This document shows, one piece after another, positions 3 to 24,029 of a stretch of DNA of 26,515 nucleotides. The notes under the pieces are model-generated. The model ran no database searches, had not been told where the DNA came from, and saw nothing but the letters and a program-made list of their open reading frames with translations. Each line of letters opens with the position of its first letter. Position 1 is the first letter of the stretch. The stretch covers positions 1 to 26,515 of the IMG/VR virus record IMGVR_UViG_3300023242_000874; one strand, 5' to 3'. This DNA comes from a virus. The translations under genes and the position numbers were made by a program.

Positions 3-587
3 TCTGTTGCAGATGTTGCGAGTCTGCCAAGTGGGGCATCTAGCAACGATGCATATATTGTTGATGCCGATGGCAATCTTTATGTCTCAGACGGTGCAGA
101 GACCTGGACTGATGCAGGTCAGATTGTCGGGCCAATTGGTCAAACAGGTGCAACCGGTGCAGATAGTTTTGTAACCGGTCCAACTGGTTCAACAGGTGCT
201 GACTCACTTGTAACCGGTCCAACAGGTGCAACTGGTGCTACTGGTAATGACAGTCTTGTGACAGGTCCAACTGGAGCAACCGGTGCAACTGGTGCTGATA
301 GCACCGTAGTGGGACCCCAAGGTGCAACTGGTGACGTAGGTGAAGCAGGTGCAACAGGTCAAACCGGTGCAACTGGTGATGCAGGTGAAGCAGGTGCAAC
401 AGGTCAAACCGGTGCAACTGGTGATGCAGGTGAAGCAGGTGCAACAGGTCAAACCGGTGCAACTGGTGATGCAGGTGAAGCAGGTGCAACAGGTCAAACC
501 GGTGCGACTGGCGCTGCAGGTGCTGCTGGTGAAAACGCTACTGACGCTGTTCAATTATCAGTAGCCTATAGTTTGATTTTCGGATAG
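3..587 (+). CDS. Collagen-like phage fibre protein, 3' end (5' end outside window)
   Basis: The frame is open from position 3 to the TAG at 585-587, so the gene starts upstream of the window. The first ~45 visible residues are a non-repetitive segment containing [20 protein letters not shown], a type common just before collagen-like tracts in phage fibres. A Gly-X-Y tract follows ([18 protein letters not shown]), then four copies of a 15-residue unit [15 protein letters not shown], and a short non-collagenous C-terminus ending SVAYSLIFG. Such tracts are expected to form a trimeric triple-helix-like stalk. The role as a tail or virion fibre is inferred from composition and from the other fibre genes downstream. 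The tract shares a 39-nt identical stretch with the collagen-like gene at 5787-8135. An ATG at 258 lies inside the tract and is not the true start. Confidence 0.85.
330..509 (+). repeat. Four tandem in-frame 45-nt repeats
   Basis: Units start at 330, 375, 420 and 465. Units 2 and 3 are identical, unit 4 differs by one synonymous base near its end, and unit 1 differs by a few bases near its start. Each encodes [15 protein letters not shown] or a close variant. Near-identity at the DNA level, not only the protein level, points to recent duplication by slippage or unequal recombination, which would change stalk length. Confidence 0.9.
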
Positions 588-595
588 GATTAGCT

Positions 596-1039
596 ATGAA
601 GCAAATACTCACAACATACACATTTACACCCGCAACTGGCAAGATTGCTTTTTCAGGGGTGTTTAATTTTAATGCAAGCAGGGTTCTGTCTGTAATAAAC
701 CAAACCACCAACACCATGATTTATGCTCAGAGTCTCGCTGGTGTAGGCATGAGCACATCTGACAGTCAGTCCATAACTCTTTCTTACGACACAAGCTCAA
801 TGAGCGCGTCCGATGATCTTACAGTTATTTATGTTGGCTCTGACGCGGAATTAGCTCTAAAATTAGTAACTGTGGGTGCTGTGGATTACGTAGGTGAAGC
901 AGCAGTTGGATCATTAGGCAATCAGCCAGTGTGGAGAATTAAGAAAATTAACAGCGCATCTGGTATAGTTATTACATGGGCAGGGACTGGAATCTTTGAC
1001 CAGGTTATGAATAACTATTATGGGTTGGAGTACAATTAA
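596..1039 (+). CDS. Small putative virion structural protein
   Basis: 147 residues starting MKQILTTYTF, with an AGGA (586-589) a few bases before the ATG. No catalytic motif, signal peptide or membrane segment is visible. The sequence is rich in beta-prone Ser/Thr/Val segments (GKIAFSGVFNF, DLTVIYVGSD) and Trp appears twice near the C-terminus (VWRIKKI, ITWAGTG). Its stop overlaps the next start as TAATG, so it is probably co-translated with the large fibre downstream. Its place between two fibre genes suggests a fibre- or baseplate-associated role. The family is not recognised with confidence. Confidence 0.7.
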   Translation: MKQILTTYTFTPATGKIAFSGVFNFNASRVLSVINQTTNTMIYAQSLAGVGMSTSDSQSITLSYDTSSMSASDDLTVIYVGSDAELALKLVTVGAVDYVGEAAVGSLGNQPVWRIKKINSASGIVITWAGTGIFDQVMNNYYGLEYN

Positions 1040-3267
1040 TGGCAGCGCCACAGTATAATACAGACTTAATCACAGTAGCGACAGCCGATGAGGCTGACGG
1101 CTGGGTAGAGCTATCAGGGACAGATGAAGACGGTTTTTCTTACAACGCCCAGAGGTCACCAGCATATGTAAATTCTGCAGATCCATTTATTCAGGGCAGC
1201 TTTGCAGTGACCCAAGTAACCCCGTTTTCCGACGAAATAGCCTCCCTGGCATTTGACAGCGGTGGGATTACGATTCCCACGGATGGTGCTATCTTTTTAT
1301 GGCATAATTTCATCTCACCCGCGTCCATGGGAACATACGCTCAAGGTGGCTACAGAATTGCAGTTGGTTCAGAGATAACTGACTTTAAAGTATATTCAGT
1401 AGGCGGTAGTGAAAAAGACAACAACCCCTATGGTGGATTTGTCAATCACGTTGTCAACCCAACCGTATCTCAAGATAAAACAGTAGGTTCACCCTCGTCC
1501 GTAATAAATTACATAGGCAGTGCAGTTTTCGTGGTGAGTGGTATCAACGTTGGGTCGTCTCACCAGTGCGACGTTATTAGGTACGGTCGCGGTGTCTCTA
1601 TATTTGAACTTGGGGACAGTGCCGGGTTTGCCACCATAGAAGGATTTGCCACAAAGAACGACCTACTAGAAAACAGGTGGGGGCTAGTCCAAAAACTGTT
1701 CGGTGGCTATTTGTTCAAGGGCAAAATGCAGTTAGGCTCCATTGCCAACCCGGTAAACTTTAGGGATTCAGACAGAATAATCCTTGTCCAGTGGACTCCA
1801 AAAGTAACGAATAATTTCAATACAGTAGAGCTACTAAATGCAACCTCGGTAGTCTCCATGACTAGGTTTACTTTTATCACGCTAGATCCTAGCGGCACAG
1901 CTTCTCGTGGTAAGTGGGAAAACACTGCTAATGCTACCTTGACGCTAGATTCATGCGTATTTGCAGACATGGATACCTTTTCTTTTGGGTCCCTAACAAC
2001 CATAACTGGAACTGCATTTAATAGATGCAATAGCGTTACACAAGCCAATGCCACAATAACAGGCAGTACTTTTAATAGGTCTACGGACTCAGCAAGTTTA
2101 GTATCAAACAATATCACTAAGGTATACAAGTGCACCTTCACGAGTGACGGTAGCAACCATGCAGTAGAGGCCACCACTCCTGGTAACTATGACTGGAACA
2201 ACACGGCTGTTGGGTACGCAACTGTGAACGGGAGCACTGGGAATGAGATATTCTACAACAACAGTGGCGGGAACATTGACCTAACAATTCAAGGCGGAAC
2301 TGCTGTAACAGTAAGAAACGGCCCCGGCGCAACAACTGTACTGAAAGAGGGAAACCCCGCTGTTATAGACCTTAAATCAGCAGCATCCTTTGGTATTCTT
2401 TCTAAAGGAGCCATAACGGGAGGAGGCTCTGTTGAAGGTGACATTGGACAAGAGTCTGGCGGTATTGCCCCGACAATTACTTCTACAGGTACCAAATACC
2501 CACCAGGAGACCCCATTGTTTTGGCTGCTATCGCAGATTTTAACGCCGCGTACACTGAAGCAAAGGACAGGCCGTTTAGTACGCTGCTTTCAGCAGCGGC
2601 TTTCGACCTTGGAGGGTTGACTCTAAAAAGAGGAACGTACAAAGTTGGAGCAGCTGCCACATTAACAACAGCAGTTACCCTAGACGCAGAGAACGACCCC
2701 AACGCGGTATTTATAATCCAAATCGGCGGAGCCTTTGGAGCTACTGCAGCAACAGGAAATGTGATACTCATAAACGAAGCACTAGCCAGAAACGTTTTTT
2801 GGCAGGTAACCGGCGCGTTTACAAGAGGTGCAAATACAGTATTCAAAGGCACAATGCTTGGCGCGGGTACGGCATCCTTTGGAGCCGAGACAGCAGTAGA
2901 GGGGCGAATTCTTGCTGCTAAAGCTGGAAGCACAATTACCCTGGCCACTACAACAGTTACAGACCCTGCTCCAGGTGTCGAGCTGACAGTGGAGATTAGG
3001 GACGTAGACGGGGGGCTCATAACCGACCCATGTGAAGTAACTATAGTCACAGACTCAACAACATCAACGGTTTTCCACGATGAAAACGTTACAACCGGAT
3101 CAACAAAGTATTCATATTCAGCCAATATTGGGTCACTTGTTTACGTCAACGTTTTGAACACAACTGGATACGAAGCAAAAACAATCAACAACTTTGTTTT
3201 ATCAACTACTGACTCAGTTTTAGCTGTCCAGTTAGATGAAGACAGAGCCTATAGTAACCCGCAATAA
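1039..3267 (+). CDS. Large fibre protein with internal DUF3494-type ice-binding domain
   Basis: 742 residues; its ATG overlaps the preceding stop by one base. Residues 1 to about 250 are a beta-rich N-terminal region. Residues ~260-440 show short Thr/Ser/Asn-rich turns (TLDSCVFADMDTF, ATITGSTFNRS) typical of a right-handed beta-helix. Residues ~444-643 match the DUF3494 ice-binding family along their whole length: opening SAASFGILSKGAI, then GDIG, the helix segment ADFNAAYTEAKDR, LGGLTLKRGTYK, LDAENDPNAVFIIQIGG, NVFWQVTG, FKGTMLGAGTASF and VEGRILA. The last ~100 residues form a small beta domain (VELTVEIRDVDGG) ending EDRAYSNPQ. That end resembles the C-terminus of the next gene product (ERNYANPV). 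The fibre role is inferred from context. Ice binding is inferred from family membership and could be an adhesive reuse of the fold. Confidence 0.85.
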   Translation: MAAPQYNTDLITVATADEADGWVELSGTDEDGFSYNAQRSPAYVNSADPFIQGSFAVTQVTPFSDEIASLAFDSGGITIPTDGAIFLWHNFISPASMGTYAQGGYRIAVGSEITDFKVYSVGGSEKDNNPYGGFVNHVVNPTVSQDKTVGSPSSVINYIGSAVFVVSGINVGSSHQCDVIRYGRGVSIFELGDSAGFATIEGFATKNDLLENRWGLVQKLFGGYLFKGKMQLGSIANPVNFRDSDRIILVQWTPKVTNNFNTVELLNATSVVSMTRFTFITLDPSGTASRGKWENTANATLTLDSCVFADMDTFSFGSLTTITGTAFNRCNSVTQANATITGSTFNRSTDSASLVSNNITKVYKCTFTSDGSNHAVEATTPGNYDWNNTAVGYATVNGSTGNEIFYNNSGGNIDLTIQGGTAVTVRNGPGATTVLKEGNPAVIDLKSAASFGILSKGAITGGGSVEGDIGQESGGIAPTITSTGTKYPPGDPIVLAAIADFNAAYTEAKDRPFSTLLSAAAFDLGGLTLKRGTYKVGAAATLTTAVTLDAENDPNAVFIIQIGGAFGATAATGNVILINEALARNVFWQVTGAFTRGANTVFKGTMLGAGTASFGAETAVEGRILAAKAGSTITLATTTVTDPAPGVELTVEIRDVDGGLITDPCEVTIVTDSTTSTVFHDENVTTGSTKYSYSANIGSLVYVNVLNTTGYEAKTINNFVLSTTDSVLAVQLDEDRAYSNPQ

Positions 3268-3305: not shown

Positions 3306-4865
3306 ATGCCAAAGATTATTGACCCAGATAGCTTAAATCAAGGAACAGAGATAGTTATATCTTATAGTACAAAGACTATAGAACTACTAATAGCCGGTAC
3401 GTTGGACAACACAAGTCCAGGATCTACCTCCGGGGTGACCCTTCAGGCACTTTACTCTTTCCTAAAAGAAGAGTGGAAGACAGATAATTCTCTTAATAAG
3501 TTTAAATTCCCCCTTAAAATGTTTACTAAGACTGACGGAACCTTCATCAACGGTTGGGGCTTCGAGAATAGCGATTCTAGAGACCTAGTCCGTGATGCTG
3601 GCTGGACAGAGGGCGCAAACGCTTACGCTGGTATTCAGTCTCTGGGTAACTTCGATTCAAATGATGACCAAGCTTACTTCTCCAATGTTGTTGGGTATGA
3701 CCAGACAGTTACAGACTTCAACAAAACAGGTAACCTAAACGAAGCAATTTTGATTACAGGCTACACAGGATATCTAAAGAAGTTCCTGCGTATCGTAGGA
3801 AAAATCTACTCAGAGTACAACCTTCTTATAGAGCAGACAATCTCTACCCTTGAGCCAGTTCTATACAAGTTTCCACTTGCTAACTCCATAGACCTAAAGA
3901 TAACTATTGATGATGCCACCTTAGATTCCGCCGTTGAGCCTTATGACGGAATGAAGATTAACTACTTGGCAGGTACCGGCTTCACTGTAGCAGCTGCAAC
4001 GACTTACCTTGCAGGTGCTGTGGTAAAAGACGGCGCAGGCCGCTGGGCATTCTGCACCACTGGCGGAACCGTAGTAACACATACAGGGCCATATGCCTCA
4101 TTCGGTGGAACATCGACTTGGGAAGCGTATGACGGTGAAGAGGAGATCGGTACAACCTATTACGCCTTCAACCGTATTATTGAAGCAAACAACGCTACAG
4201 ACCTAGAAGTGTACAACTGGGCACAAAGGCAGCTAAGAAAAACAGAGACTATTAACGCCGATGACTCTGCCACTGTAGGTCAGCGAAGTGGACGAGAAAC
4301 AAAAGGTAACCTCGCTGAGCTGCTAGTAGAGTACGTTGGAGAGACCCTGAAAACAAAAGGTGGTTTGTTAATTAGAGGGTTCAATACGAACTCAACAAAT
4401 AATATTAATTTCCGCCCAATCGTTGAAGGTACAGGTGGAGTTTCTCCTGTCACTTTTCTCCCTCTATCCACAACTGCTGAAGTCAACTTCCCATTCGTTT
4501 CAACAGGTAACCTAGAGTTTTCTAGCAACTTGGTTAGCGAGCCAGACGCAGACACAAAGTTCACAATGTACTTTGACAACGCCGGTGGCAACTTGTTCGA
4601 TACTGCTAACGCTATTACCGTAAAAGACAATTCTCTTAACGAAATTACTGGTGTGATAGAGTCAGGAACTATCGCATTCGACTTCGACTATGACAACAAC
4701 ACTCAAGGAGGCAGAACGGCAGGAACTGACGCATCTGTATCAGTTGTTGCTCAAGGATTGAATGGCGCAACGTGGGTATTGGCAGCTTATACAATTTCCC
4801 GTGCTGCTGGACAGACTATTCCTGTGAATGCTGATGATGAGCGTAACTACGCGAACCCAGTGTAA
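3306..4865 (+). CDS. Putative phage structural (fibre or baseplate) protein
   Basis: 519 residues starting MPKIIDPDSL, with a purine-rich AGAGAGAA before the ATG. The 38-nt gap upstream holds a TACAAT (3274-3279) that could be a -10 element, but no convincing -35 is present. Residues ~48-72 contain the module ALYSFLKEEWKTDNSLNKFK followed by FPLKM. It is clearly related to a segment of the 159-residue protein at 5196-5675, so the two probably share a fold or attachment interface. The rest is beta-rich and Gly/Thr/Asn-rich with no catalytic motif. The C-terminus ERNYANPV parallels that of the preceding fibre protein. The virion role is inferred from context. Confidence 0.75.
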   Translation: MPKIIDPDSLNQGTEIVISYSTKTIELLIAGTLDNTSPGSTSGVTLQALYSFLKEEWKTDNSLNKFKFPLKMFTKTDGTFINGWGFENSDSRDLVRDAGWTEGANAYAGIQSLGNFDSNDDQAYFSNVVGYDQTVTDFNKTGNLNEAILITGYTGYLKKFLRIVGKIYSEYNLLIEQTISTLEPVLYKFPLANSIDLKITIDDATLDSAVEPYDGMKINYLAGTGFTVAAATTYLAGAVVKDGAGRWAFCTTGGTVVTHTGPYASFGGTSTWEAYDGEEEIGTTYYAFNRIIEANNATDLEVYNWAQRQLRKTETINADDSATVGQRSGRETKGNLAELLVEYVGETLKTKGGLLIRGFNTNSTNNINFRPIVEGTGGVSPVTFLPLSTTAEVNFPFVSTGNLEFSSNLVSEPDADTKFTMYFDNAGGNLFDTANAITVKDNSLNEITGVIESGTIAFDFDYDNNTQGGRTAGTDASVSVVAQGLNGATWVLAAYTISRAAGQTIPVNADDERNYANPV

Positions 4866-5195: not shown

Positions 5196-5675
5196 ATGGC
5201 GATCAAAGTCACGTTTGAACCCGTTAACAAGATTATTCAGGTGACTCTTGTTCCAACATCTGGTGTTGTTGAGTTAGATGTAAAAGCCGATCTCTATTCT
5301 GACGGAAAAGAGGATTGGCTTGCTAGCAGCATGCTGAGTAAGTATAGGTTTCCCATTAGAGTCGTTGGGGGGGACTCCTTGCCAGGAAGCCGTGTGCTTG
5401 GCTCTACTTTCTTTTTGCTCTACGGCTGGAAGATACGACCTTACAGTTCAGACCATACTTTAAATATAAATGGGAACCTGTATTCCGAGGATGGATCCTC
5501 GCCCTTCACCTTAGCTCTAGGTACGGTTAATATCGCGATTGTCAATTTAGTTTCATCTCTTGTGGACTCTAGATCAACTGTCGGTGGCGGCAATGTTGAT
5601 AGTAGTGCTGTCTCCAACGCGGTATGGTCTAATAGCAAGGCACTAACCGTAGGAAAATTCTTAGGGTTAAAATAA
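5196..5675 (+). CDS. Putative virion protein sharing a module with the 519-residue structural protein
   Basis: 159 residues; GAGGG precedes the ATG. Residues ~33-56 (LYSDGKEDWLASSMLSKYRF then PIRV) align with LYSFLKEEWKTDNSLNKFKF then PLKM in the protein at 3306-4865. After this comes FFLLYGWKIRPYSSDHTLNI then NGNLYSEDG, a motif I associate with phage fibre/neck-type structural proteins, though I cannot name a family. The C-terminus (SAVSNAVWSNSKALTVGKFL) is helix-prone. It is the last gene before a possible terminator and promoter, so it may close the upstream fibre operon. Confidence 0.7.
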   Translation: MAIKVTFEPVNKIIQVTLVPTSGVVELDVKADLYSDGKEDWLASSMLSKYRFPIRVVGGDSLPGSRVLGSTFFLLYGWKIRPYSSDHTLNINGNLYSEDGSSPFTLALGTVNIAIVNLVSSLVDSRSTVGGGNVDSSAVSNAVWSNSKALTVGKFLGLK

Positions 5676-5786: not shown

Positions 5787-8135
<2,349 letters not shown>

Positions 8136-8156: not shown

Positions 8157-10019
8157 GTGGTTCAGACAAATGCAAACTTTAGCTCACGCCCGCAATACAG
8201 AATAGAACTCTTCACCGAAGCTTACGCGGTGTCTGGCGGCACTAGAATTGATGTCTCTGCCAATCTAGTGAAGTGGCAAACCGTAAACAATAGCCCAAGC
8301 AGTAGTGGGTCCCCACGCTCGTACTCTGTGCCCAATGGTAGAGCAAACAGCACTAGTGGCCCCCTAGTTGAGACAGGCGGGGACAGCAACTTAAGCTTCG
8401 ACTTCAACTACTCTGCAGGTCAGAGCTTCATCATCTACAGCGGATTTAGTAGGTATATACCTTCCGCAAATGGTAGCACTACCGTTTCTATGTCGGTGAG
8501 CCACAGCTTGTTGGGCTCAGCTACTGCAAGTATAAACGTAGCCCAAGTTGTTACTGTAGTTAACAGGACTATCTTTTTTAACGGTAACGGAGGAGACTCT
8601 CCAGGCTCTCAAACCGTAAGCGAAGGTAGTTCAATATCGCTACCGTCATCCTCACGCTCCGGCTACACATTTGACTACTGGAATATAGGCGGGGCACAGT
8701 ATTCTGCGGGCCAGAACTATACTGTCAACAGTGACGTAACTGCGACCGCTTACTGGACCCAAACCTACAATAACCCCTCATTCACTAGTGGAGTATCGTC
8801 TGGTAGCTTTCGTGTTGGGGACAGTGTCGCTGACTATATTGATGCCTCTAACACTTTCAGCGACTATGGACAAAGTGGGACAAACTATAGCGCTTTGAGC
8901 ATACCTATCTCTGGCCTGTATGTGCAAGATTACGGCTCGTATGGGTACATAACTGGTCAAGTAGGTAATGTATTTCCAGGAAGCTATACCGTAAGCGTTT
9001 ACGCTAACGGTCCTTCTGGAATTTCTGCGACATCCCAAGGAACATACACCATACTTGCGGCCCTTCCTTCATGGTCAGACACTTCTGTATCTAGCGCTGC
9101 AAGAGTAGGAGCCTACTACTCATCTAATTTCTCCGCAACAAACGCCACTAGCTGGACAATTAATGGTATCCCGCCTGGACTAACTACTTCGGGTACTTCA
9201 TCCTCCACTGTAACATTATCGGGGACCCCCACAAATTCAGGTAGCTATACAGTAAGTGCAACGCCTAGGAACTCGGGAGGTGAGTCGGGATCAACCGAGT
9301 ATTTTTCAATAACGGTGTCGCCTCGACTTCCTGTTTGGTCGGACACTTCTCTCACGTTGACGGCAAGAGTTGGTGTCTATTACAGCAGCAGTGTTTCTGT
9401 CAATTATGTGCACAACTGGAGCACAACAGGCGTCCCCACTTCGGGGCTATCTTTTTCCTCTAATACAGGAGAGACTAGCTTAAGTACATCCAACTTATTT
9501 GGGACACCAACGGCCTTTGGCACAAAAAATATTGGGTTGACCCCTAGAAATTCTTCCAATGAATCAGCGACCACAGAGAACTATGCAATTGTCATATCTG
9601 ACGCGGCACTTTCTTGGGCAGATCAGGCGCTGTCTACTACTACAGTGGTACAAGACGAGGCCTACTCGGATCAGGTTTCAGTTCAATCCGGCCCAGTCTC
9701 AGTTACGTATTCAGAAACTCCAGGATCTGCTCTACCAACGGGATTATCTGTTAATTCGGCAACTGGAGCAATAACAGGAGCCGTCGCCACTCCGGGGGTT
9801 TACACGTTCAGGATCCGGTCTACAAATGGTAGCTCAGAGACTTTAGATACTAATTTCCTGAGTCTGACAGTTGAGGCTGCTGGCGGCTATGTGAAGGTTT
9901 GGAGTGGCTCCGCGTGGGTTGACGGAACAGTGAATGTCAGAACTGCCGGTGCATGGGTTGAAGGGACAACTCAGATTAGAAATTCAAGCAATGGATGGAC
10001 GCCAAGCTTTAGTAGTTAA
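8157..10019 (+). CDS. Tail fibre/adhesin with InlB-type repeat and Ig-like domains
   Basis: 620 residues from a GTG start preceded by AGAGGTG (8144-8150). Residues ~10-130 form a beta-sandwich-like domain resembling N-terminal parts of actinophage minor tail proteins (SRPQYRIELFTEAYAVSGGT). Residues ~137-200 match an InlB B-repeat (Listeria-Bacteroides repeat): IFFNGNGGDSPGSQTVSEGS, then SGYTFDYWN and VTATAYW. Residues ~205-575 contain about four Ig-like units of the putative-Ig type, with recurring LPSWSDTSV, LPVWSDTSL and ALSWADQAL starts and GSYTVSATPRNSGG-like ends. The C-terminus has short Trp repeats (VKVWSGSAWVDGT, AGAWVEGT). No catalytic site is visible. It is the last gene of the plus-strand fibre module and probably a receptor-binding or surface-attachment protein. 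Confidence 0.8.
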   Translation: MVQTNANFSSRPQYRIELFTEAYAVSGGTRIDVSANLVKWQTVNNSPSSSGSPRSYSVPNGRANSTSGPLVETGGDSNLSFDFNYSAGQSFIIYSGFSRYIPSANGSTTVSMSVSHSLLGSATASINVAQVVTVVNRTIFFNGNGGDSPGSQTVSEGSSISLPSSSRSGYTFDYWNIGGAQYSAGQNYTVNSDVTATAYWTQTYNNPSFTSGVSSGSFRVGDSVADYIDASNTFSDYGQSGTNYSALSIPISGLYVQDYGSYGYITGQVGNVFPGSYTVSVYANGPSGISATSQGTYTILAALPSWSDTSVSSAARVGAYYSSNFSATNATSWTINGIPPGLTTSGTSSSTVTLSGTPTNSGSYTVSATPRNSGGESGSTEYFSITVSPRLPVWSDTSLTLTARVGVYYSSSVSVNYVHNWSTTGVPTSGLSFSSNTGETSLSTSNLFGTPTAFGTKNIGLTPRNSSNESATTENYAIVISDAALSWADQALSTTTVVQDEAYSDQVSVQSGPVSVTYSETPGSALPTGLSVNSATGAITGAVATPGVYTFRIRSTNGSSETLDTNFLSLTVEAAGGYVKVWSGSAWVDGTVNVRTAGAWVEGTTQIRNSSNGWTPSFSS

Positions 10020-10204: not shown

Positions 10205-12892
10205 CTAATAAGCCTGTAATTTAGCCCTCCAGTCTGTTTCTCCAACCGCAATTTCAGATACTTCTTTGAGGACCTTGGTATAGTCCTGAAGGTAGGCCCT
10301 GTTACCATCTCCGATAACAATCATTCCACGGTCAACTAGTTTTCTGTGGAATGCAATCTGAGTCATAGAACGCTCTCCACGACTCTCACTCCACATCCTG
10401 TAGGTCTGGAATAGGTCGTTTAGCGGTAGAGAGGCGCCCTCATTGGCGACTATCTCTTCTGCTAGGAAGGAGCCAATTCGATCTTCATTCTTTCTGTAGA
10501 TCTCGGAGGCATCCTTAACAACGCGGCACCAGCCCAAAGGATCTCTTTCAGATGAAGATAGGTATTTAATTGCACCCTCTACAGCCCAAGAAAAGACAGC
10601 AGGTAGCCCGCCTTCTGGGTCAGACAGGTACTCTTTGAGGCTGGGGTCTGGCCTCTCGGGTATGTTCATGATTGGGATAGTTCTTATTCGTCTCCACATA
10701 GCTTCGTCTGTAATGATAGGACGGTGGTTTGTAGTGATCCACATTTTACCCTTGGACTCAAAAGTAAAAGGCTTTTCTCCAGGAGATCGAGCAGAAAGAG
10801 TAGCTGAACCGGTCATCTTCTTGACCTGATTCTCCTTCAGGCGGTCACCTTCTGGAAGCTCGTCAATCCAAATCATGCGGCGACCACGAAGTTCGGCCAT
10901 GTGATACTCGTCAGTAGAGTTCTTTTTACCATCCGAGGCAACTAGTACGTTGGAGTCGAGCATCCAAGAGTAGCCGTTTTTGCCTAGCGCGTTGAATATT
11001 GTTTCAACAAAAGTGTTCTTACCGGAACCGGCAGGTCCGTAGACGAGGAAAAGTATGTCTTGGTTATTTAGCCCCGTTAGCGTGTATCCAATTGCCCTTT
11101 GCAGCCAGTCTTGATACTCTTTGTCTCCTCCAGTTACGAAGTCTAAAAACTGATCCCAGCGGACATTTGTAAGACCTGGAGTGTAAGAAACAGCAGCCCT
11201 ACGAGTGATGTCCAAGTCTGGACGCCCAGTCAGAAGTTCGCCGGTTTTTAGGTCGACTACGCCGTTCTTAACTCCAATTAAGTTAGGGTCGCTGTCCCAT
11301 TGATCTACAGGCTTTTTAATTCGTCCATCTGAGTTAGCACTGCTAATCATGTTGCCGATCCTAGCAACAGACTTAGTTTGCTTTGCCCAACTAATTAACT
11401 CACTCTGACGACTGTCATTACCAATATGTAGACGCACCTCACCCGCAACTACCGCAGCTATCCGCTTAGCGAGTTCTTGTATTTCTAGACGTTCCACGTC
11501 TGGTTTCCAGTAATTACCGTCCCAGTAGAACCAGCCTAGCCCTTCTGTATATCGGACTACAGATTGATATGTATCGATAAGTCGCCGGCCGTTTCCGGTA
11601 TCCGACGTGCTCCTGCGACCAGGGCTACCGCCATCTTCTACGCTAAGTGCGTCAGGGTCATTGGGAACATTCAAGTTGCCGTTACTGACAAGATCTCCAG
11701 CAGATAGCCCAGATTCAGCAAGCGCGGTTACCTGCATGCCTACGTAGTTATCTGGCATCTGAGAAGAAGTGTCCTCATCAGAACTGTCCTCATCCAAATA
11801 GTCGCTAGACGTGGTTATAATTCTAGGACTTAGAGGCTTAGGAGATTTTTTGGCCTCCCCCTGAGAGTTAGCTGCCCACTCCATTCCTTGGGTGTTCACC
11901 CAGTCGGTGACGCCCTCCCACTTCTTGTCAATAATTGGATTATTTTTTACGTACTCAATAGCACGGCGAACGTGCATTAGCAAAGAGTTTTGACCTTCAA
12001 GCTCCATAGGAGGAGTGATCTTTTCAGCATTAAACCTGATCATCATGGTTTCAATGTTGTTAGAGTGGAAAGAGTCAGTGCCCATTTTGTTGGCTAGCGC
12101 GCAGGCGAGCTTGTATACATCTACAGCTCTAGAACCTTCTGTAATGCCTTCTTCGAACATTTTCTCAATGTCTAGACGCCCTCCACCATAGTCGAGGTCT
12201 GCCAAGCCTGACCAGTCACCTTGAGAGTATCTAGTGCTTACGGCCCCAGACCCTCGCCTTGAGTTCTTAGCACGAACTACCGCAAGGAGTTCTTCGGGAG
12301 CTTCGGTAATTTCGCGCTCCCAAGGAGCGTGGCCCGGCTTCCATTCGTAAGTCAACCCCGAGAAATGTCGAGAAGGAGCGATAAGGACGTATCCATTGTG
12401 CTTGACGTCAATTCCGTTCAAGCCCTCGCTCTTAAAGTTCCCGATAAACTTTTCGTTAGGGTCACACTTATATATAAGGTGGCGACCACGAACAGGCTTA
12501 CCTCTGTTTTCATAGAGACCTGTTATAGCCTCAACAGTTGGAGGCAGAGCCCCTTGAGCGCGCTCTTCTAGCTTGAGAAAGGACTCATCACCGCCAGATC
12601 GCGGGTCTACATCAATTACTAGGAATCCAGAATCCTTGCAAAATACACCAACATTATAGTCTGGATTTTCGCCCCACCATGTTGCAATTTGTTCGTGATC
12701 AGAGGTTGCTTCACTGTTCCAAGAGTTGATAGCGGGATGCTTTCCACGTTCCCTAGACTCTGCGTGCTCTCTTCCGCACGTGCATTTACCCTGCTTGTCT
12801 ATACCGTGAACTGGTAGGACTTTCCACCCGTGGTCTGCGTACCAGTTGGCCGCACCGCCTAATCTGCCGTCAGCAGAAGACCAATCTCCCAT
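10205..12892 (-). CDS. Bifunctional primase-polymerase / D5-like superfamily 3 helicase
   Basis: 895 residues. The N-terminus is an archaeo-eukaryotic prim-pol domain: AANWYADHGWKVLPVHGID, CTCG, RGKHP, then the metal-binding VIDVDPRSGG (Asp94 and Asp96), GRHLIYK and GIDVKHNGYVLIAPSRH. A Ser/Asp-rich linker (about residues 355-420) joins it to the C-terminal half, which is a P4/D5-type helicase. There, Walker A is GPAGSGKNT (Lys625), Walker B lies in MIWIDELPEG, sensor 1 in WITTNHRP and an arginine-finger region in MWRRIRTIPI. Together these give primer synthesis and unwinding at the replication fork. AGGA precedes the ATG. The gene stands apart from the other minus-strand replication genes, separated by a plus-strand cluster. 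Function is confidently inferred from motifs, and no key residue is missing. Confidence 0.92.
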   Translation of the reverse strand: MGDWSSADGRLGGAANWYADHGWKVLPVHGIDKQGKCTCGREHAESRERGKHPAINSWNSEATSDHEQIATWWGENPDYNVGVFCKDSGFLVIDVDPRSGGDESFLKLEERAQGALPPTVEAITGLYENRGKPVRGRHLIYKCDPNEKFIGNFKSEGLNGIDVKHNGYVLIAPSRHFSGLTYEWKPGHAPWEREITEAPEELLAVVRAKNSRRGSGAVSTRYSQGDWSGLADLDYGGGRLDIEKMFEEGITEGSRAVDVYKLACALANKMGTDSFHSNNIETMMIRFNAEKITPPMELEGQNSLLMHVRRAIEYVKNNPIIDKKWEGVTDWVNTQGMEWAANSQGEAKKSPKPLSPRIITTSSDYLDEDSSDEDTSSQMPDNYVGMQVTALAESGLSAGDLVSNGNLNVPNDPDALSVEDGGSPGRRSTSDTGNGRRLIDTYQSVVRYTEGLGWFYWDGNYWKPDVERLEIQELAKRIAAVVAGEVRLHIGNDSRQSELISWAKQTKSVARIGNMISSANSDGRIKKPVDQWDSDPNLIGVKNGVVDLKTGELLTGRPDLDITRRAAVSYTPGLTNVRWDQFLDFVTGGDKEYQDWLQRAIGYTLTGLNNQDILFLVYGPAGSGKNTFVETIFNALGKNGYSWMLDSNVLVASDGKKNSTDEYHMAELRGRRMIWIDELPEGDRLKENQVKKMTGSATLSARSPGEKPFTFESKGKMWITTNHRPIITDEAMWRRIRTIPIMNIPERPDPSLKEYLSDPEGGLPAVFSWAVEGAIKYLSSSERDPLGWCRVVKDASEIYRKNEDRIGSFLAEEIVANEGASLPLNDLFQTYRMWSESRGERSMTQIAFHRKLVDRGMIVIGDGNRAYLQDYTKVLKEVSEIAVGETDWRAKLQAY

Positions 12893-13787: not shown

Positions 13788-14995
13788 TGGATTTGGCAAA
13801 GAAACTAGAAGAGCTTCGTTCACCTGGTCGCAGTGGATCAGATTTGAAGAAGGTAGGGGTCCCAGAAGATTGGCGCTCCCGAATGGACATAGATTCGGTT
13901 AAAGGTGGCTTTGTAATCTCCGCCCCTCGCCCAGAAGGCGAAATAACAGACGCCACTACTGTCCTGGAAGACTTTGGACTAGACCCTCGAGAGTGGACAG
14001 TTTCGTCCATGCGGAGAGGCAAGTGGCAAAAATTTGATGGTGACTACCTAGAGTCGGTGCGAGTAAACCTTGTACCAACAGGTCAAGTTGCAGAAGACGG
14101 CTTCGACGTCGAGTCCTTGATGGATGAGATAAAAAAATGGCGCCCGTCTAAGGGCATCAAGAAGTCAACCGGAACAGGTGCCTTCATGGTGGCACCCAGC
14201 GACCAGCAGATTGGTAAGAAGGCCGGTGACCAAGGTACACCACAATCTATAGGTCGGCTACTACAGCTCACCGATAGTGCGGTACACAGATTTGAAGCAT
14301 ATAAGAGAATGGGCCTTTCATTAGGAACTATCTGCCTTGCTCTACCTGGAGACCACGTTGAGGGAAATACAAGTCAGCATGGAAGGCTTCAGGGTCTTGC
14401 TGCATCGGATCTCGGGCTCACAGAGCAGACAAGAGTTGCCCGCAGACTGCTTTTGGCACAGATTAAAGCTTTTGCCCCTCTCACAGATCACATGATTGTG
14501 CCCGTTGTTAATGGCAACCACGATGAGGTAACTCGTCAGGTGGCTGCTGACCCGGCTGATGGGTGGAACGTAGAAATCGCTTCTGCAGTCCAAGACATCT
14601 GCGCAGAAAACCCGGAGCTTGCTCACATTGAGTTCAGGTACCCGTCTAGCGGTCATCAGACTCTAACCGTGAATGTTGCCGGCTCAATGCTGGGACTATT
14701 TCATGGGCACCAAGCAGGACAGAATAACATCATGAAATTTCTTTCCGGTCACGCTGCAGGGCAAACAGCTCTAGGCATGGCTGACCTGTGGGTGTCGGGC
14801 CATTACCACAACTTTAGGAGCATGGACATCAGTGACAGACTATGGCTGCAGTGCCCTACAACAGACCCCGGAAGCGAATGGTTCCGTGATCGTAGCGGAA
14901 TGGAGTCAAAGCCCGGATTGCTGACTACCGTTATCGGTGGAGACTTCGAGCCACGAGAATTTATCAGCGTTTTGGCTGTCAAGGGTGAAGTCTAA
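13787..14995 (+). CDS. Calcineurin-like metallophosphoesterase
   Basis: 402 residues; its ATG overlaps the previous stop. About 130 N-terminal residues form an uncharacterised domain (VPEDWRSRMDID, GLDPREWTVSSMRRGKWQKF). The phosphoesterase motifs then follow in order: SDQQIGK (Asp139, with Gln141 where many members have His), PGDHVEGN (Asp189), NGNHDE (Asn244-His245), FHGHQ (His306, His308) and SGHYHN (His339, His341). These give a two-metal site for phosphodiester or phosphomonoester hydrolysis. Phage members are often annotated as Mre11-like nucleases or DNA-end phosphatases, but the substrate cannot be read from sequence. Coupling to the putative DNA-binding protein upstream favours a nucleic-acid substrate. 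Confidence 0.85.
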   Translation: MDLAKKLEELRSPGRSGSDLKKVGVPEDWRSRMDIDSVKGGFVISAPRPEGEITDATTVLEDFGLDPREWTVSSMRRGKWQKFDGDYLESVRVNLVPTGQVAEDGFDVESLMDEIKKWRPSKGIKKSTGTGAFMVAPSDQQIGKKAGDQGTPQSIGRLLQLTDSAVHRFEAYKRMGLSLGTICLALPGDHVEGNTSQHGRLQGLAASDLGLTEQTRVARRLLLAQIKAFAPLTDHMIVPVVNGNHDEVTRQVAADPADGWNVEIASAVQDICAENPELAHIEFRYPSSGHQTLTVNVAGSMLGLFHGHQAGQNNIMKFLSGHAAGQTALGMADLWVSGHYHNFRSMDISDRLWLQCPTTDPGSEWFRDRSGMESKPGLLTTVIGGDFEPREFISVLAVKGEV

Positions 14996-14999
14996 AATC

Positions 15000-16067
15000 A
15001 TGAAAGTAGCAGTTTATACAATTGCGCTCAATGAAGAGAGTTTTGTCAAAAGATGGCACGAAAGCGCAAAAGACGCCGATTACCTCTTAATTGCAGATAC
15101 CGGAAGTACGGATAATACCGTAAAAGTAGCCAAAAAGCTTGGAATCAACGTAATAGACGTAAGAGTTCGTCCTTGGCGTTTCGAGGATGCACGTAATGCA
15201 TCTCTTGTAGCTATTCCTGATGATGTTGACTACTGTATTGCCCTAGACATGGATGAGGTACTTCTACCCGGATGGCGTGAAGAGCTCGAGAAGGCCCTGC
15301 AGCAGGGCTGGACGCGTCCAAGGTATCAATACACTTGGAACTGGAAGGATGCCGCTGAGACAGCCCCAGGGCTCCAATATGGCGGAGATAAGATACACTC
15401 TCGCCTAGGCTACCGCTGGTTCCACCCGGTACACGAAGTCTTGAAGACTTATGGTGAAACTAAGGAAGTTCAAGGTTGGGTTGGGCTAGAGATACACCAC
15501 CACCCAGATAACACAAAAACACGGTCGCAGTACTTTCCACTGTTAGCAATGGCAGTGGCAGAGGGCCCGGATGATGATCGCAATGCTTTTTATTATGCCA
15601 GAGAGCTCTTTTTCTATAATCACAGAGAAAAGGCAATAGCAGAGTTTAAAAGGCACCTCAGCCTGCCTAAGGCTATTTGGCTCCCAGAGCGTGCAGCATC
15701 CATGAGGTACTTAGCTAAGCTAGAGCCCGAAAAGACAGAAGAATGGCTGCTTTCTGCAATAAAGCAATCTCCCGGTCGTAGGGAATCATTGACAGAATTA
15801 GCAACGCACTACTATAAAACCAGTAACTGGCCTAAATGTCATGAAATGGCGACAAAAGCTCTAGAAATCAAGGAAAAGCCTCTTGACTATCTTTGCGAAG
15901 ATTTTGCTTGGTCAGCTCTACCTTTTGACTTGGCAGCAATTTCAGCGCATCAGCTTAAAAAGACCGAGAAAGCGTTGGAATACGGTGAGCAGGCCTTAAA
16001 GCTTGACCCAGAGAATGAACGTCTAAAGAAGAATGTTAGTTACTATCGCGCTTTTGCTGATTCTTAG
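15000..16067 (+). CDS. GT2-type glycosyltransferase with helical-repeat (TPR-like) C-terminus
   Basis: 355 residues from the ATG at 15000. An in-frame ATG at 14937 would add 21 residues but overlap the previous gene by 59 nt, so it is less likely. The N-terminal GT-A fold reads MKVAVYTIALNEESFVKRWH, ADTGSTDNT and CIALDMDEVLLPGW, where Asp83-Met84-Asp85 is the DxD-type nucleotide-sugar/metal site. A HPVHEV and EIHHHPD segment follows. Residues ~200-350 are helical repeats resembling TPR (ALEIKEKPLDYL, KALEYGEQALKLDPENERLK). Phage enzymes of this kind are thought to glycosylate virion proteins, phage DNA or host surface; the target is not evident here. The 3' end overlaps the convergent WhiB-like gene by 32 nt. 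Confidence 0.85.
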   Translation: MKVAVYTIALNEESFVKRWHESAKDADYLLIADTGSTDNTVKVAKKLGINVIDVRVRPWRFEDARNASLVAIPDDVDYCIALDMDEVLLPGWREELEKALQQGWTRPRYQYTWNWKDAAETAPGLQYGGDKIHSRLGYRWFHPVHEVLKTYGETKEVQGWVGLEIHHHPDNTKTRSQYFPLLAMAVAEGPDDDRNAFYYARELFFYNHREKAIAEFKRHLSLPKAIWLPERAASMRYLAKLEPEKTEEWLLSAIKQSPGRRESLTELATHYYKTSNWPKCHEMATKALEIKEKPLDYLCEDFAWSALPFDLAAISAHQLKKTEKALEYGEQALKLDPENERLKKNVSYYRAFADS

Positions 16068-22930: not shown

Positions 22931-23395
22931 TTATTCTAATAATCTTACAGGTTTCCAGCCTAATTTGATTACTCTGAGAAGTCCGTGTCGAATCGCATCC
23001 AAAGCGTGACCTTCACCACCTCTATGCCAGTACCCCAGCTTCTTAAGTTTAGGGTTGTCAAACATTGCTTTAGCATTAGCCGGTGATTGGAAGTAAATAT
23101 CGTCTGGAGCCCTTCCAGCGTCAATCATACACTGTTTTAAGATGCCAATCTGCTCTAGAGAGTAAGGCGCTTGAGCATTTCTAACAGTCTGAGCATTTAT
23201 GGTAAATCTCTCGCAAACTATATCCAAGTTAAGTGATATCTCTGGAGACGCTAGGGCCTCTCGTATGGGCTTGGCATATTCTTCCTGTTGTACTTCAACA
23301 GACCACTCTAAAACAGGCTCACCGCCCGCCTGGTGGCTAAATAGAGCTATTCCGGTAGCTTTACCTGGATCAACTGCTAGTACATATTTAATCAT
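22931..23395 (-). CDS. RuvC-like Holliday junction resolvase
   Basis: 154 residues. RNase-H-fold resolvase motifs: AVDPGKATGIALF with Asp9, DIVCERF with Glu62, and the C-terminal GHALDAIRHGL with His130, Asp133 and His137. These supply the acidic metal-binding site for cutting branched DNA. The size is close to RuvC and to phage RuvC-like resolvases. The start overlaps the end of the upstream GIY-YIG gene by 8 nt and has only a weak purine-rich site (GAGAG) before it, so translation may depend on coupling to that gene. It works logically with the polymerase, recombinase and nuclease genes around it to process replication intermediates. Confidence 0.85.
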   Translation of the reverse strand: MIKYVLAVDPGKATGIALFSHQAGGEPVLEWSVEVQQEEYAKPIREALASPEISLNLDIVCERFTINAQTVRNAQAPYSLEQIGILKQCMIDAGRAPDDIYFQSPANAKAMFDNPKLKKLGYWHRGGEGHALDAIRHGLLRVIKLGWKPVRLLE

Positions 23396-24029
23396 TTTTA
23401 TCTTTTTGCTCTCTTTCTCTACGTCTCTTCTGAGCGACTTTGATATTTTCTAAATGTTCCGGAGAAAGTTTCCTACCTTTTTGGGCAGCAGATATTTTTG
23501 CTGCAGTTTCGGACGAACACTCTCTACCAATTAAAGAAACTCTTATTTTTTCTTTATGTTCCGGAGAAAGGTTTCCACCTTTCTTTGCCTCAGACATCTT
23601 TCTTTTTGCCTCTTCAGATCTTTTTTTACCGCTGTTAGCTGAAGAGATCTTTTGTTTGGTCTCTTCTGAAACAGCTCTACCAGCCCCGGCCAAAGACTTT
23701 CTGCGTCTAGTTTCTTCGGAGTCTTTTTTTCCCAAAGAGCCTTCGCCACCATCAGTCATATTTAAAAGTCGAAATCCTTTTGCTCTAAGCTCTGCTATCA
23801 AAGAAATCTCTGCCAAACAAGCCTCTTCCCATGTTAAGTCACCTAAAACTTTTACAGCTTTAACCGAATCTCCATGCTTTTTGATCCAGTCAGCCACTGG
23901 ACGATTCACATTTCCTGCTTTTTCTTTGTGGGCTTTTAGTCTCATGGAGACGTCATCGTATTTAGTTATACCAACGTACCTGACCTCTTCAGGGCAAGAT
24001 TCTAATGAAAGCGTATACAGACTAGACAT
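23388..24029 (-). CDS. GIY-YIG homing endonuclease with six NUMOD3-like repeats
   Basis: 213 residues. The N-terminal GIY-YIG domain reads LYTLS (Tyr5) and RYVGIT (Tyr18-Gly20), with Arg30 in SMRLKAH and the catalytic Glu74 in CLAEISLI; LLNMTDGGEG ends the domain. Then about six 16-18-residue repeats follow (SEETKQKISSANSGKK, SEEAKRKMSEAKKGG, SPEHKEKIRVSLIGRE, SSETAAKISAAQKGRK), the NUMOD3 DNA-binding units of SegA/I-BmoI-type enzymes. The tail is basic. The gene lies between the polymerase and RuvC genes on the same strand, overlaps RuvC by 8 nt, and by eye has a lower GC content than its neighbours. It is probably a free-standing selfish endonuclease inserted here. No ribosome site is clear; a TAGTAT -10-like hexamer lies 6 nt before the ATG. 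Confidence 0.88.
   Translation of the reverse strand: MSSLYTLSLESCPEEVRYVGITKYDDVSMRLKAHKEKAGNVNRPVADWIKKHGDSVKAVKVLGDLTWEEACLAEISLIAELRAKGFRLLNMTDGGEGSLGKKDSEETRRRKSLAGAGRAVSEETKQKISSANSGKKRSEEAKRKMSEAKKGGNLSPEHKEKIRVSLIGRECSSETAAKISAAQKGRKLSPEHLENIKVAQKRRREREQKDKND

Follow-up and report, generated by a model that had tools for sequence, protein, structure and literature searches.

Organization of the locus and placement of the appendage genes

The window, by which we mean the whole stretch of 26,515 nucleotides analysed here, begins in a cluster of fibre-type genes bordered by a primase/helicase gene on the opposite strand, and within this cluster a single open reading frame of 742 codons encodes a protein bearing a domain of the DUF3494 (PF11999) family (Table 1). 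All the motifs quoted in the original prediction, an earlier reading of the same DNA, are present in the translation of this frame. The DNA polymerase of the contig is 69% identical to that of Actinomycetia phage DSL-LC01 and 53–56% identical to those of large Microbacterium phages, and the kinship of the primase agrees with that of the polymerase. By these sequence comparisons, the contig comes from the genome of an actinobacterial phage that has DSL-LC01 and the large Microbacterium phages as its kin; the hosts would be actinobacteria of lake or soil type. The NUMOD3 protein encoded further along is probably a homing endonuclease.

Table 1. Features of the window, with positions, strand and remarks
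Feature	Position	Strand	Remark
Collagen-like fibre protein	3..587	+	truncated by contig end
147-aa protein upstream of carrier	596..1039	+	weak match to Arthrobacter phage Sonali virion protein
742-aa appendage protein (carrier)	1039..3267	+	gp54 position; bears DUF3494 domain
N-terminal module, residues 1–184	1039..1590	+	kept among cassette relatives; predicted fold pLDDT ~30
Right-handed beta-helix, tailspike-like, residues about 185–435	1591..2343	+	structural match to 6e1r
Inserted DUF3494 domain, residues about 436–645	2344..2973	+	missing from all carrier relatives
Predicted B-face strand 1, GAITGG	2407..2424	+	aligned register
Long alpha-helix of DUF3494 fold	2512..2568	+	domain residues 56–74 (protein 492–510); predicted model
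Predicted B-face strand 2, AAATLT	2650..2667	+	aligned register
Predicted B-face strand 3, GAFGAT	2728..2745	+	aligned register
Predicted B-face strand 4, GAFTRG	2812..2829	+	aligned register; Arg596 included
Predicted B-face strand 5, GTASFG	2866..2883	+	aligned register
Predicted B-face strand 6, STITLA	2929..2946	+	aligned register
C-terminal beta-sandwich, residues 646–742	2974..3264	+	common to gp54-type proteins
C-terminal tag DRAYSNP	3241..3261	+	also on gp53-type proteins
gp53-like structural protein, end DERNYANPV	3306..4865	+	end-to-end homologue of Syn5 gp53
gp55-like small protein	5196..5675	+	same cassette
Collagen-like tail-fibre-type protein	5787..8135	+	
620-aa protein, Listeria-Bacteroides repeat and putative Ig domains	8157–10019	+	end of fibre cluster
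Primase/helicase	10205..12892	−	adjoins fibre cluster; shows kinship of the contig with DSL-LC01 and Microbacterium phages
Glycosyltransferase family 2 with TPR-like repeats	14937–16067	+	beside calcineurin-like phosphoesterase/exonuclease gene
NUMOD3 protein	23388–24029	−	between DNA polymerase and RuvC-like gene; not annotated at corresponding place in DSL-LC01

Judged by its sequence and that of its neighbor, the 742-aa protein is the gp54-position partner of a gp53/gp54 appendage cassette. The product of the following gene matches Syn5 gp53, which is annotated as structural, over its entire length (31% identity, 3e-53, coverage 100%), and in Syn5, S-TIP28, Panino, ctPCi537, and Rctr197k gp53 adjoins a protein whose N-terminal part varies and whose C-terminal beta domain is conserved. 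The locus resembles those of these phages in the two-gene layout, the gp53 homology, the gp54-type C-terminal domain, and the terminal tag. Homologues of gp53 occur in at least 286 viral stretches, and most of the viral loci collected show the same arrangement (a gp54-type neighbor in 61 of 80). The tag, [DE]RxYxNP, ends 79 of 87 gp53 proteins and 65 of 80 gp54-type proteins versus 2 of 738 other open reading frames, and we infer that it may be a shared docking tag. The cassette is widespread, and its N-terminal modules are swappable (loci L061–L140). A Laminin_G_3 domain is carried by 5 of 59 gp54-type proteins, and therefore the cassette slot appears to take binding domains. DUF3494 is found only in the 742-aa protein among them; PF11999 matched none of 48 other cassette contigs and none of the genomes of Syn5, S-TIP28, Panino, ctPCi537, and Rctr197k. 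Peptide scans using the N-terminal and C-terminal modules of the carrier returned no matches.

The whole-protein model of the carrier, which is presumably a trimer, is weak (pLDDT 54 over the full length) apart from the beta-helix. The predicted beta-helix (residues 184–438), which is right-handed as in phage tailspikes, aligns with 6e1r over 216 residues (Z 14.5 in a structure comparison of the predicted model). PF11999 is the only Pfam family reported in the protein, which also weakly matches, with a score under the cut-off, a Bacteroidota ice-binding family of NCBIfam. By inspection, its N-terminus (MAAPQYNTDLITVATADEADGW) has no signal peptide or lipoprotein motif, in contrast to virus-encoded secreted ice-binding proteins of the kind regarded as host cryoprotection genes.

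It is likely that the 742-aa protein resides on the virion, and on the basis of gene position a place in the tail region is favored. In Pumpernickel, minor tail proteins occupy the slot next to the primase and the tape measure lies upstream, and in DSL-LC01 a collagen/fibre cluster lies near the primase; since the fibre proteins of the contig have no homology to those of Pumpernickel, the tail placement is an argument from position. In Syn5 itself, gp53 and gp54 reportedly make the horn, a result ascribed to Raytcheva et al. in 2014; this structure sits on the vertex farthest from the tail. The horn is described as standing opposite the tail in PMC10575957. A cassette that builds such a capsid-vertex appendage, from which any ice binding would then come from the capsid end, would accord with the end-to-end homology of the neighbor to gp53, with the gp54-type C-terminal domain of the carrier, and with the presence of the adenovirus capsid protein LH3 among the structural matches of its beta-helix, but we regard this location as rather unlikely in view of the nearest well-annotated relatives, in which the primase-side slot is taken by minor tail proteins, the tape measure being upstream, or has a collagen fibre cluster in its vicinity. 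The question concerns location and not activity, and a horn is compatible with any of the readings of the domain considered below.

The inserted DUF3494 domain

The original prediction had recognized an ice-binding domain of the DUF3494 type, a fold with which polar bacteria and fungi hold on to ice, in a phage fibre, and a profile search bears this out. PF11999 matches residues 488–641 of the 742-aa protein (profile 57–208) with 117.3 bits (E 9.6e-34) against a Pfam cut-off of 28.7 bits. The first quarter of the domain is too divergent for the Pfam HMM, yet it is present in the predicted fold. Folded in isolation using an alignment with 13 relatives, the domain is predicted with high confidence (pLDDT 93.1, pTM 0.90) to be the irregular DUF3494 beta-helix with a long helix alongside, as had been anticipated. 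All 31 Foldseek matches in the PDB at E <= 0.001 are DUF3494 ice-binding proteins. The best structural match is 7bwy (Z 33.1, rmsd 1.2 Å, 199 residues), and the next fold after the ice-binding proteins is that of the Thermus pilin ComZ (Z 13.9), for whose pilin domain we know of no ice binding. Nearest by sequence among solved proteins are 5uyt, 6eio, 6bg8, and 3wp9. AnpIBP (7bwy), EfcIBP (6eio), IBPv (5uyt), and ColAFP (3wp9) are like the phage domain in Pfam score, fold, side helix, and small-residue B-face, and the solved DUF3494 ice-binding proteins are 28–34% identical to it. We therefore regard as secure, from the profile match together with the predicted model, that the 742-aa protein contains a complete DUF3494 domain. 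The solved proteins are secreted, whereas the phage copy sits within an appendage protein. A DUF3494 domain on a surface tether is likewise seen in Shewanella frigidimarina SfIBP_1 (6bg8) and other tethered ice adhesins of the type already described (PMC9957290); in those the tether consists of Ig repeats on the cell, whereas that of the phage protein would be a beta-helix with a virion-type C-terminal domain.

Belonging to the DUF3494 family is no proof that a protein binds ice. The register of the B-face, the presumptive ice-binding face, was taken from published segments of AnpIBP and IBPv (PMC5673226) and transferred by alignment. Across the six beta-helix strands, whose counterparts make up the ice-binding face of characterized relatives, all 24 outward positions are glycine, alanine, serine, or threonine (10 of them serine or threonine), compared with 48% small residues in the whole domain, 11–20 of 24 outward positions in shifted registers, and 55–100% at the outward B-face positions of aligned DUF3494 relatives. 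The nominal probability of this pattern, 6e-9, is to be discounted because the register was chosen by the analyst. Arg596 in strand 4 occupies an inward position that is normally hydrophobic. Overall, the aligned residues indicate a predicted ice-binding face that looks intact.

The proposal that the two flanking modules lie next to each other in related fibre proteins was also confirmed. Relatives of the carrier, obtained by collecting loci around the gp53-like neighbor gene, lack exactly the DUF3494 segment (L062, L137, L121, L100, L084, L126, and Rctr197k_179), and in an alignment of six relatives the insertion point is a single gap between RNGPGATTVL and GVELTV. The L062 protein, 42% identical to the carrier overall, matches its residues 1–445 (39%) and 636–741 (47.7% over the last 106 residues) with both parts abutting. 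The domain does lie where it was first placed, at 2368–2967, but the module extends slightly further at both ends (2344–2973). Both junctions are in frame within a single open reading frame and fall exactly at a module boundary, and neither target-site repeats nor sharply foreign composition was found at 2344 or 2973. GC3 is 0.36 in the insert versus 0.40–0.44 in the remainder of the gene, and lower still in the collagen gene, and the codon usage of the insert falls inside the range of the neighboring virion genes. A clean insertion of DUF3494 between the beta-helix and the C-terminal domain is secure as far as aligned sequences can establish it.

DUF3494 domains in hosts and in other viruses

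DUF3494 is present in 65 of 300 Microbacteriaceae genomes, where it often occurs as repeats, and the best identity to the phage domain is 46–47% over the whole domain. Because the Microbacteriaceae are the family of the hosts of kin phages and DUF3494 is common there, it is plausible that the domain was captured from such a host; the position of the phage domain in the DUF3494 tree has no support, and the donor is consequently judged by identity only.

How rare such domains are among phages, a question raised with the original prediction, can be gauged from a tblastn search of 50,697 phage records with the carrier protein and two other DUF3494 domains as queries, which returned none. The BFVD contains only three DUF3494 proteins, all from Hyperionvirus. 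A scan of IMG/VR with DNA patterns for N[VI][FY]W[QK]VxG followed by a PF11999 check, from which genes lacking the motif may escape, yielded a handful of further viral DUF3494 genes. Several of these (G005 at L052, G007 at L053, G008 at L054, G080 at L157, and G002/G009 at L055/L056) encode DUF3494 with signal, lipoprotein, or membrane-anchor features and have a closer resemblance to surface proteins of hosts or to auxiliary genes; the host-targeted proteins of other viral contigs have an N-terminal signal, whereas the 742-aa protein is without one.

A second phage lineage (G001 at L051:3982–6114, G082 at L160, G084 at L156, G088 at L158, and G087 at L159) encodes fibre-like DUF3494 proteins composed of an N-terminal helical module, chitobiase-like repeats, and a C-terminal DUF3494 domain. 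Like the 742-aa protein, they have no signal peptide and are encoded in a structural cluster, where the gene for a major capsid protein of the Mx1-like type lies within a few kb, but their DUF3494 domain is C-terminal, whereas that of the 742-aa protein lies between modules. Tunturiibacter phages have similar chitobiase-like repeats in structural proteins of their virions. In the domain tree, the domains of this lineage form a clade separate from that of the 742-aa protein, which suggests that phages took up DUF3494 more than once.

Viral genes of this family have been reported before. The PF11999 genes of three Arctic viral contigs (PMC11515562) and a single antifreeze gene from viruses of the Southern Ocean (PMC8407431) were both read as host protection. 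In the former study (PMC11515562), Synechococcus phage S-SKS1 is the phage to which the viral ice-binding-like homologues are mostly tied, but in its genome (HQ633071) we found no PF11999 match. These genes and the Hyperionvirus proteins share with the present case a viral origin, but the former were interpreted as host cryoprotection, Hyperionvirus is a giant virus, and none has been described in a virion appendage. In a search of mainly freely accessible literature, we found no report of a DUF3494 or ice-binding domain in a virion. DUF3494 in viruses was already known and a second fibre-like phage lineage exists; what appears to be new is DUF3494 within a phage virion-type appendage protein.

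Possible roles of the inserted domain

We propose that a host-derived DUF3494 domain on an actinophage virion appendage adsorbs to ice, a reading to which we assign a probability of about 0.5. The carrier would belong to an appendage on the virion of an actinobacterial phage, and its tailspike-like beta-helix and the attachment domain at its C-terminus, both conserved across phages, would be the scaffold. The DUF3494 domain, probably from a Microbacteriaceae host, would have been inserted between these scaffold modules and be displayed on the particle exterior, where a presumably flat B-face, made up of threonines and small residues, would order water and adsorb to ice. Virions might then be tethered at ice-water interfaces in lake or soil ice where hosts with similar ice adhesins gather, and freeze-thaw damage could perhaps be limited in ice-bound virions. 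On the predicted fold and face, the inserted fold may allow phage particles to adhere to ice. The cold or seasonally frozen habitat suggested in the original prediction is conjectural. Taken separately, we lean towards the view that the inserted domain binds ice, and the ecological role of tethering at ice-water interfaces is put forward tentatively. More tentative still is the wider suggestion that an actinophage captured an ice-adhesin domain of its host so that virions come together with their hosts at one ice-water interface, and that a second lineage independently did likewise.

The fold could instead be a receptor-binding or adhesive module for a target other than ice, such as host glycans, host DUF3494 adhesins, or exopolysaccharide. 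The tailspike-like beta-helix of the carrier, the lectin-like Laminin_G_3 domain on sister proteins, the relation of the fold to the pilin ComZ, and the DUF3494 repeats often borne by the likely Microbacteriaceae hosts all point this way. We nevertheless consider it unlikely, given that a switched ligand would not need a B-face that is wholly small and threonine-rich; moreover, no characterized DUF3494 protein is, to our knowledge, known to bind a glycan. A stable beta-helical spacer or stabilizing insert that has no ligand, its composition being incidental, is less probable again. Here one beta-helix would simply adjoin another, in a class of genes that freely gains and loses domains (L068 has a different insert within its C-terminal domain), but the 24 small outward residues are confined to the register of one face and the entire domain is preserved, side helix included. 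The published reading of Arctic viral DUF3494 (PMC11515562), together with the viral genes that have signal peptides or lipoprotein motifs, would make the protein the product of an auxiliary gene, released at lysis and protecting the host or its ice habitat. This is very improbable for a protein that has no signal peptide, joins DUF3494 to appendage modules, and ends in the tag shared by a structural pair. An assembly chimera of a bacterial DUF3494 gene and a phage gene would explain why the fusion with gp54-type modules was found in one contig only, with no second copy, but is hardly credible with in-frame junctions at the module boundary and an insert whose codon usage does not fall outside that of the neighboring virion genes.

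If adsorption of the virion to ice is correct, this would be the first virus particle known to us with a built-in ice-binding domain, and it would alter the view of how phages persist and meet their hosts in lake ice, snow, and frozen soil. The Syn5-type gp53/gp54 appendage would gain a testable function, the modular display of an exchangeable outer domain that is lectin-like in some phages and of ice-binding type in the 742-aa protein. As a separate observation, two gp54-type proteins of other loci (L121:3689–5890 and L125:9347–12415) run ~200–500 residues past the usual tag, another route to outer domains.
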